NCBI GenBank assembly: GCA_027083035.1
Contig: JALWSY010000117.1
Coordinates: forward strand, 1-53,006
Source: Sulfurimonas sp.
Lineage (GTDB): Bacteria > Campylobacterota > Campylobacteria > Campylobacterales > Sulfurimonadaceae
DNA length: 53,006 nucleotides
Reading direction: 5' to 3'
This document shows positions 1-1,786 of this stretch, in pieces. The translations under genes were made by a program, and so were the position numbers. Position 1 is the stretch's first letter, and every line of letters begins with the position of its first letter. The notes under the pieces are model-generated. The model saw only the letters and a program-made list of their open reading frames with translations. It was not told the origin of the DNA and ran no database searches.

Positions 1-329
1 CCAAGGGCATAGAGTGAGAGCATCTTTTTTTCAATCTCATCTGTCATAGTTGTTTGATTTTTCTTGACGATTTGAGGCTCAAAACTTCCGTTTCGATCTC
101 GTGGAACATCGAGTTCAAACTTACCGTAATCACTTTTCATGGTCTTGGTAGTAAAACCATTTTTACGGTTTTTACTGAGATCTTGGGCTAGGTGAGAGTC
201 TATCTCTGCTGCAAGTGCAGCTTCTGTGAGTTGTTTGATAAGGGAACTGAGTGCTCCATCAGCACCACCAATTCCTTTACCTGCTTTAATATCTTGAGCA
301 AATTGCTCAACATCTACTTCTATCTTCAT
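1..329 (-). CDS. IS256-family transposase, 5' part (cut by window edge)
   Basis: Reading the minus strand from an ATG at 329 gives 109 codons without a stop, running off the left edge. The product starts MKIEVDVEQFAQDIKAGKG, then has a helical stretch with IDSHL, a basic KNRKNGF segment, FELDVPRDRNGSFEPQIVKK, and a segment ending KKMLSLYALG. This is the N-terminal layout of IS256/Mutator transposases; the DDE catalytic residues would lie beyond the window. The family moves a compact element by cut-and-paste or copy-out. Whether this copy is intact cannot be seen. The AAGGA-like bases just upstream of the ATG (about 335-340, minus sense) are a plausible ribosome site. Confidence 0.88.
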   Translation of the reverse strand, partial: MKIEVDVEQFAQDIKAGKGIGGADGALSSLIKQLTEAALAAEIDSHLAQDLSKNRKNGFTTKTMKSDYGKFELDVPRDRNGSFEPQIVKKNQTTMTDEIEKKMLSLYAL

Positions 330-421: not shown

Positions 422-709
422 TTACTCCTCAACAAATCCAAAATCTTCATCATCGCTGCTGCGCTGTGCATCTACGATATCTTCGATAAGCTCTTGACAC
501 TCTTCTTCATCCATTTCACCACTTTTAATATCTTCTAAGACATCTTCCAAGTCAGCTTTAAACTCACGAAGCTCCTCTATCTCCTCTTTTGCATCCTCAC
601 TTGCCTCTTTATTATCAGCTATCTCTTCAAAAATTTCATCTAACCTATCATTAATATCGGGAATAACACTCTTATTAATCAACTCTTCTAGTTTTTCTGC
701 TTGTGACAT
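422..709 (-). CDS. small acidic coiled-coil protein of unknown function
   Basis: The product has 95 residues, about a third of them Glu or Asp, with no cysteine, membrane segment or signal peptide. Heptad-like spacing of Leu/Ile through residues 8-75 suggests a helical or coiled-coil protein, followed by an acidic tail ending DEDFGFVEE. An AAAGG ribosome site lies 7-8 bases before the ATG, and a TATACT -10 candidate lies at 737-742 on the minus strand. I do not recognise the family. The composition is typical of cytoplasmic protein-binding helical proteins, but that is only a description. The gene is transcribed toward the insertion sequence and away from plsC. Confidence 0.75.
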   Translation of the reverse strand: MSQAEKLEELINKSVIPDINDRLDEIFEEIADNKEASEDAKEEIEELREFKADLEDVLEDIKSGEMDEEECQELIEDIVDAQRSSDDEDFGFVEE

Positions 710-782: not shown

Positions 783-820
783 CATTTAATCTGACCTTAC
801 GCACTAAACATATATCTGAG

Positions 821-897
821 TGGTATAAGTTGCATTCAAGTTCAAGGCAGGAGGATGCAGGAGCTACTAGTAGCTAAATTGTGTGCAAATTATACCA
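821..897. repeat. left internal hairpin of the MITE
   Basis: TGGTATAAGTTGCA (821-834) pairs with 884-897 with a single mismatch. The loop region contains the perfect 14-bp palindrome AGCTACTAGTAGCT at 862-875. Confidence 0.75.
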
Positions 898-908
898 TCC
901 CTTTGGGA

Positions 909-1008
909 CAAAAAGATAAAGCATTACCTGTGGCGTTAGAAAACCTCCACCGTAGCTAAGGCCTACGCTGGAGAACTTCCGCCTTGCATCTAATGCTTTA
1001 TCTTTTTG
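909..1008. repeat. right internal hairpin of the MITE
   Basis: The 18 bases 909-926 (CAAAAAGATAAAGCATTA) are exactly inverted at 991-1008. Within them CTCCACCGTAG pairs with CTACGCTGGAG (one mismatch), so the whole 100 bases can fold into one long stem. Confidence 0.78.
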
Positions 1009-1066
1009 CTCGGATATATGTTTAGTGCGTAAGGTCAGATTTAATCTTAAAATCCAAGGGTAGTCT

Positions 1067-1786
1067 ATGCTAAAAAACTACAGTTTTAAAAACATTGGAA
1101 AGTTTATCTTTATGATTGAACTTGGTCTGAAATATATCCATGTCTTTAAAAAGACATTTTTTCATCCCTCAATTACTCTCAAACCTGCCTATGAAGAGTT
1201 ATCTAAACAGAGACAAAACTACTCTAAAGAGGTTTTAGAGTTTTTAAACATCGAAGTAAAAACCATCGGCTCCTTGCCAGATGAAGATAAAATTCTCTAT
1301 GCTATCAACCATCGCTCTCTGCTTGACATTATTATTATGGAGTCTGTCTTTGCATCAAAAAATAAAAATGGTACATGGATAGCAAAACAGCAACTCTTTG
1401 ACTCTCCTATCTATGGAAAATTTTTTGAGTATAGCGGGTGTATTAGTGTTGACTTAGAAAACAAAAGAGGGCTTCTTACATTTTTCAAAACCATTAAAAA
1501 AACCTTTGAAAAGGTAAACAACATGAACATCTATATGTTTCCAGAGGGTGAGCGTTACAATGGAGAGGGCATTACCACTTTTCAAAGCGGCGCAAGTAAG
1601 ATTGCAAAAGCAAACAAACTCAAAGTAGTACCCATCTTTATTAAAGGAAAAAATGAAGAACTCTTTGCAAATGCACCTTATAAAGAGAGAGAAGTAGTAG
1701 AGGTTTACATCGGAGATGTTATCTCAGGTGAGAATATAGAGGATGAGTATATCTCTTTTTACAAATCTATCGAGGCGCAATCATAA
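1067..1786 (+). CDS. plsC: 1-acyl-sn-glycerol-3-phosphate acyltransferase (PlsC family)
   Basis: The protein has 239 residues and transfers an acyl chain to the sn-2 position of lysophosphatidic acid at the inner membrane, giving phosphatidic acid. The acyltransferase signature H-x4-D is at His82-Asp87 (NHRSLLD), and the glycerophosphate-binding FPEG motif is at about 158-161 (FPEGER). A hydrophobic N-terminal stretch fits peripheral membrane attachment. The length is normal for the family. An AAGGG ribosome site precedes the ATG. The stop overlaps the pdxJ start by one base (TAATG), so the two are co-transcribed. Which acyltransferase of the family it is (main PlsC or an ornithine-lipid type) cannot be settled from sequence alone. 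Confidence 0.85.
   Translation: MLKNYSFKNIGKFIFMIELGLKYIHVFKKTFFHPSITLKPAYEELSKQRQNYSKEVLEFLNIEVKTIGSLPDEDKILYAINHRSLLDIIIMESVFASKNKNGTWIAKQQLFDSPIYGKFFEYSGCISVDLENKRGLLTFFKTIKKTFEKVNNMNIYMFPEGERYNGEGITTFQSGASKIAKANKLKVVPIFIKGKNEELFANAPYKEREVVEVYIGDVISGENIEDEYISFYKSIEAQS

Follow-up and report, generated by a model that had tools for sequence, protein, structure and literature searches.

The 53,006-nucleotide stretch of Sulfurimonas (Campylobacterota) DNA analyzed here (the window) carries a short repeat-bounded element at positions 784-1045, the element proper occupying 248 bp (791-1038). MITEs are generally regarded as deletion remnants of a parent IS. The locus raises the question of whether this element is such a remnant or whether its folded interior is a unit in its own right. 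The element is probably a member of a non-autonomous transposon family distributed across the Campylobacterales, in which ends copied from IS elements enclose a foldback core of fixed geometry.

A reading of the sequence alone had described a MITE with 30-bp TIRs differing by one mismatch and flanked by the 7-bp duplication ATTTAAT, and direct inspection gives the same picture (37 nt at 95% identity if the near-palindromic duplication is counted as part of the repeat). No open reading frame of 60 aa or more overlaps 784-1045. The element lies between a gene for a small AF0941-like protein (422-709, minus strand) and a gene for a 239-aa protein (1067-1786, plus strand). In the 29 genus-mate loci examined with the orthologous gene, the upstream neighbor of the window copy is absent beside that gene and is not conserved. 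A few hundred bases from the MITE, window positions 1-329 (minus strand) contain the start of an IS256-family (Mutator-type) transposase gene truncated by the contig end (PF00872, NF033543).

The predicted RNA fold of 784-1045 has an energy of -125.5 kcal/mol compared with -61.2 +/- 4.5 in 200 dinucleotide shuffles, none of which equaled it (z = -14.2). It is arranged as an outer helix, a first arm, a mini-hairpin and a second arm, joined at a junction without unpaired bases (Table 1). The nested hairpins of the sequence-only reading are thus present, but they are not perfect: internal loops and bulges occur in both arms, exact pairing being confined to the 18-bp base of arm 2. The window copy is also a shortened one. 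Its relatives are about 266 bp long, and the missing portion of arm 1 corresponds to TCAAATCTTCCTAACGTGG in the G026 copy; direct reading shows the YAACGNAG partner of CAAGGC to be deleted in the window. Arm 2 is matched by covariance model (CM) R1 at 911-1006 on the minus strand with an E-value of 2.6e-12, and arm 1 gives a weak CM match at 823-895 (E 0.005-0.011). No Rfam family attains its gathering score, whether in the element or at eight related loci; the single match to a miRNA family is far below the score set for that family. Scans for tRNA genes and terminators gave no match accounting for the element.

Table 1. Features of the element and their positions in the window
Feature	Position	Strand	Basis
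Target duplication, left copy	784-790		ATTTAAT, direct reading
IS-shared end CTGACCTTACGCAC	791-804	+	Also at either terminus of the IS701-like elements of genus mates (1111 and 1183 bp), exact or with 1-2 mismatches
Outer helix, left strand (30-bp TIR)	791-820	+	Inverted-repeat comparison and fold
Arm 1, about 20 nt shorter than in relatives through internal deletion	821-897	+	Fold; comparison with G006 and G026 copies
CAAGGC, one half of the internal-loop motif conserved in arm 1	843-848	+	AAGGC column block invariant in 40 arms
Arm 1 tip GGAGCTACTAGTAGC	860-874	+	AAGGC-N11-tip pattern in at least 116 DNA stretches
Mini-hairpin between the arms, TCCC-TTT-GGGA (TCCCTTTGGGA)	898-908		Fold; CC(C)-NNN-(G)GG form in most relatives
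Arm 2	909-1008	-	Carries the internal-loop motif as well, in minus orientation: CAAGGC 981-986, TAACG 934-938
Outer helix, right strand (TIR)	1009-1038	-	Ends in the IS-shared 14 bp at 1025-1038
Target duplication, right copy	1039-1045		ATTTAAT, direct reading

Relatives with the ends of the window copy (type A, CTGACCTTACGCAC) are found at unrelated loci in the genus mates G006, G025, G026, G091, G102, G119 and G124, where they measure about 261-266 bp. A 7-bp target duplication flanks 7 of 28 type-A elements compared with 0.22 expected after permuting the flanks. Type-A ends also bound two IS elements of 1111 and 1183 bp in genus mates. These encode an IS701-like DDE transposase (NF049921 at 208 and 229 bits, range 207-229; also PF13546/PF01609). 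Broken reading frames keep the scores under the NF049921 cut-off of 250; both IS copies look frameshifted and are apparently degenerate. The relatives, their 7-bp duplications and an IS701-like IS with the same ends support the MITE call. The expectation of the sequence-only reading that several dispersed copies exist holds for the related genomes and fails for the host genome, which has a single copy with type-A ends and in which no type-A IS partner was found. The IS701 family usually makes a 4-bp target duplication, not the 7 bp of type A. The IS and the element agree only over the terminal 14 bp, and no IS match extends into the outer-helix stretch 805-820, which is specific to the element. 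Several genomes of the genus contain a second, unrelated MITE family of 133-162 bp, whose left end is again CTGACCTTACGCAC and whose interior, TAGCTTTAGGGGGTTGTAGGGACA..TGTCCCTGCC, is conserved (L081:1005-1147, L092:1007-1149, L066:1349-1510 and L051:1501-1643, the L066 copy with the 7-bp duplication TAAGTAA).

The first DNA search with the element returned some matches to the interior alone, and those loci showed the same layout between unrelated ends. The AAGGC-N11-GGAGCTACTAGTAGC pattern was sought in 84,980 species genomes, and among the matches listed 80 of 80 belonged to Campylobacterota. A full-model CM search of the phylum detected the core in 60 of 397 sampled genomes and in 26 of 68 genera, all of one order. 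No relatives were found in viral contigs or in plasmid and phage collections. The core combines an outer helix of some 33 bp, a pair of arms each about 97 nt long and the mini-hairpin, again without unpaired junction bases, in elements of typically 260-275 bp. Among the matches listed, 53 complete elements are 260-274 nt long, a few with insertions reaching 321. Typical sizes in them are 31-34 bp for the outer helix, 94-99 nt for arm 1 and 94-102 nt for arm 2, with a mini-hairpin of 7-11 nt. The CC(C)-NNN-(G)GG form of the mini-hairpin is retained in most related elements with varying loop letters. Across elements, the loop triplets enclosed by CCC and GGG (as at window 898-908) form reverse-complement pairs (TTT/AAA, TAC/GTA, TTC/GAA), as if the loop could flip.

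The window's own genome contains at least six further copies of the core (contigs C82, C87, C98, C103, C110 and C166), whose ends are of types C, D and E and differ from those of the window copy. Dependence of the matches on end type was addressed with a hold-out model, R2, from which the arms of types A and B were left out. Every type A and type B locus tested yielded arms with this model, as did the new end types present in other families, in most cases at E < 1e-7; in the window the model recovered arm 2 at 2.2e-8 and the damaged arm 1 weakly, at 0.011. In elements of types B and F (e.g., L020 and L098) one arm belongs to a second class; on inspection its internal motif differs, reading approximately AATCTTGCACA..TGCACAATCTTACC in F and TTGTGCAAAA..TTTTGTGCAAG in B.

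At least eight different end sequences occur on core-bearing elements. Apart from type A they include type B (AGACTTCTTGCA), C ((T)AAGTRCCT...), E (ACCAATCCC), F (GGGCACCTCTAAAAA), G (ATTGCCATCCTA) and H (TTGAACCCTCTGAA), and in other families of the order TTATTACCGCACCAAC, TAGAACCTTTCTCC and ATTACCAACCCG border the same geometry. The length of the target duplication varies with the end type, being 7, 4, 3 or probably 5 bp, or TA alone, and duplications are present in only 25-70% of copies. With permuted flanks as the expectation, a 3-bp duplication (AAT/ATT) was found in 15 of 27 type-B elements (5.2 expected), a 4-bp one in 22 of 32 type-F elements (5.2 expected) and a 5-bp one in 3 of 6 type-E elements (0.8 expected, a small sample), ATTAT also surrounding the C82 copy of the host. 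Types C and G are flanked by TA without a longer duplication. For type C2 the empty site is available in another genome (L049), with one TA where the filled site has two. Counts for types G, H and E are small. The material consists mostly of draft metagenome-assembled genomes, in which the structure of IS copies is poorly assembled.

IS partners were sought through DDE transposase loci across the genus, and IS elements with matching ends were found for four end types: A, which is IS701-like, and B, F and H, which belong to the IS5 family (NF033581). The type-B IS is 907 bp long, has a 17-bp end AGACTTCTTTCATAACC identical to that of the G017 element, is flanked by AGT and encodes PF13613+PF13359. 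The type-F IS measures 1254-1300 bp, two copies having the duplications ATTA and TTAA; the type-H IS is about 1230 bp long, with AATT in two copies. Both encode PF05598+PF01609. No IS-length pairs of type-B or type-F ends were present in the 18 genomes first searched; they were found later in other genus mates through the transposase loci. The same genus-wide search gave no partner for the TA-flanked types C and G or for the 5-bp types E and D. IS-length end pairs of the TA-flanked type were considered as IS and rejected, as they enclose ordinary genes (rubrerythrin, AMMECR1) or a repeat protein and no transposase. At L106:2705-2744 a type-C2 right-end fragment lies about 1.3 kb from a complete element, with the rubrerythrin and AMMECR1 genes between them. 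An apparent replacement of ends in place between L200:4368-4636 (type C) and L045:1932-2215 (type F) was likewise rejected, the two insertions being some 20-30 bp apart; in these related genomes one intergenic region has thus received two separate insertions.

The pattern of variation in the arms bears on the proposal of the sequence-only reading that the structure itself is under selection. Across 40 diverse arms, both partners have changed at 31 of the 36 base pairs; doubly changed cells number 395 compared with 128 +/- 10 in shuffles, and the pairing score falls from 0.70 to at most 0.24 when the partner is shifted by one column. The unpaired blocks AAGGC and AACGNAG are invariant across the same arms. 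On the motif strand, G-T outnumbers A-C by 54:1 in the ten base pairs adjoining the motif and by 43:5 in the upper stem, the distal stem giving 14:22; after clustering at 75% identity the ratios are 45:1, 35:5 and 13:21. These counts use symmetric scoring without an energy model. A first count of strand bias taken from RNA folding was dropped, because RNAfold itself favors G-U. From this asymmetry the motif-proximal hairpin is, as judged by base-pair substitutions, constrained as a single strand, either of RNA or of single-stranded DNA, for both of which the same preference of G-T over A-C is expected. Covariation and the strand-specific tolerance of G-T together bear out selection on the structure. 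In elements whose two arms are both of the motif class, arm 2 has its motif on the opposite strand, which leaves one such arm for each strand. All 38 scorable copies are intergenic, often less than 60 bp from a start or stop codon, and their orientation relative to flanking-gene transcription is unbiased (9:8).

The near-identity of the ends had also been taken as a sign of recent insertion. The comparison does not support this: outer helices are about 94% paired even in elements whose end sequences are unrelated, so the pairing of the ends is maintained and does not serve as a clock. Solo outer hairpins of 43-57 bp, which have type A, B or F ends and no core, were observed at L228, L229, L249, L250 and L069, and matching duplications still flank those of types B and F. 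These hairpins resemble either products of palindrome deletion or relatives without a core. The same 22-nt insertion, TGCTATGCCCTTTGGGTACAAG, is present in the arm-1 tip of L132 (type C), L015 (type F) and L142 (type-G-like), elements with different lower stems and ends. It is direct evidence either of an exchange between elements of different ends or of three insertions from one source.

Could the element nevertheless be an ordinary IS701-derived MITE, that is, an internally deleted IS whose interior was palindromic by chance and became nearly perfect through template switching (quasi-palindrome correction) and not through selection? Type-A ends do match the IS701-like IS, replication template switching perfects imperfect palindromes, and the distal arm stem shows no strand bias, as a neutral process predicts. 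Origin by internal deletion is nevertheless disfavored, as the interior is not IS sequence and is common to elements with the ends of other IS families. Template switching, moreover, would not fix the unpaired bases of the internal loop, a length constant within a few percent, or the preference for G-T over A-C on one strand. This explanation is therefore considered improbable. An assembly or sequencing artefact of long palindromes, suggested by the many copies at contig ends of draft genomes, is improbable in the extreme: copies with differing flanks occur in the single-contig genomes G039, G030, G060, G144 and G369, and one copy has an empty site in another genome.

The two other explanations concern what the core is. 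It could be an RNA structure that a host protein binds or that is processed into small RNAs; it would hitchhike on MITEs, be active either way round and shield or regulate neighboring genes. The G-T (G-U) tolerance of the motif strand, the intergenic position close to start and stop codons and a C(UACG)G tetraloop possible in some arm-2 tips are in line with such an RNA. Set against it are the negative Rfam result, the absence of an orientation bias (although the 9:8 ratio taken by itself speaks neither for nor against an RNA role) and the same asymmetry predicted by folding of single-stranded DNA; it is regarded as a tentative possibility. The core might instead be a pair of single-stranded-DNA hairpins serving replication or transposition in the manner of REP doublets/RAYT or attC hairpins. 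Two inverted imperfect hairpins, each strand-specific, are also what REP doublets have, and the core-less solo hairpins suggest palindrome deletion on single-stranded DNA. The arms are about 97 nt and not 20-40, a constant GTAG tag at the hairpin foot is missing, and the DDE transposases of the matching ends would already explain mobility. The boxes of attC sites are paired and complementary; CAAGGC is not complementary to YAACG, and identification with attC sites was rejected. This second possibility is rather unlikely.

On balance we favor, with some reserve, a class of selfish DNA defined by its folded core and not by its ends: an IS satellite that would have moved among the ends of at least five transposition systems across the order, with a strand-specific hairpin doing conserved work. 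What natural selection maintains is apparently the fold and not the ends. Such an element has two layers. The outer one, 14-17 bp at each end, would be copied from the TIR of some resident IS, whose transposase would then move any element with matching ends in trans. The inner one consists of the element-specific extension of the outer helix, the two arms of about 97 nt, the 7-11-nt mini-hairpin and the fully paired junction. Each arm presents a conserved internal loop, CAAGGC against YAACGNAG, with the constraint on the fold acting on the motif strand only. With both arms of the motif class in opposite orientation, either strand of the element may expose one working arm. The element would thereby be indifferent to its landing orientation, which agrees with the unbiased orientation and the intergenic position of the scorable copies. 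Ends and arm tips may be swapped between elements by recombination or gene conversion. We infer both that the core is a transposase-agnostic passenger selected as a single-stranded fold and what the fold does: it would act as RNA or single-stranded DNA, most likely with a host or transposition protein bound at the internal loop, and the core would be kept because this protein or the replication or transposition machinery uses the folded loop.

No matching element or core was found in the literature, where open-access papers were searched. The closest resemblance is to QMITE2 of Coxiella burnetii and similar structured bacterial MITEs, which are small and intergenic, have 23-29-bp inverted ends, 7-9-bp duplications and a palindromic core, and give a very stable predicted transcript fold (PMC10969869). 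Unlike the present core, with its 26 genera, at least eight ends, covariation and strand-specific pairing, QMITE2 is described as one element of one species (PMC10969869). The IS of the IS701 and IS5 families and their MITE derivatives share the 14-17-bp ends and, in several copies per type, the duplications; the present interior, in contrast, is not IS-derived and is common to elements of both families. Like REP, BIME and REPIN sequences, the elements are dispersed, intergenic, strand-specific pairs of inverted imperfect hairpins, whereas their arms of about 97 nt (94-102) lie within an outer helix fixed at 33 bp, bordered by transposase-type ends and duplications, and lack GTAG, a REP hairpin being 20-40 bp (PMC3733652, PMC3116915). 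The Tn3-derived TIMEs are also non-autonomous miniature inverted-repeat elements and known makers of mosaics, but depend on one transposon family where the present elements use several (PMC4133298).

Contrary to the usual view of MITEs, it is the interior that forms the conserved unit here, and the ends can be exchanged. This makes it possible to test how a passenger without coding capacity switches from one transposase to another and what role a folded nucleic acid plays for a mobile element. The core is conserved well enough for covariance models, with which it can be sought in transcriptomes and in other phyla.
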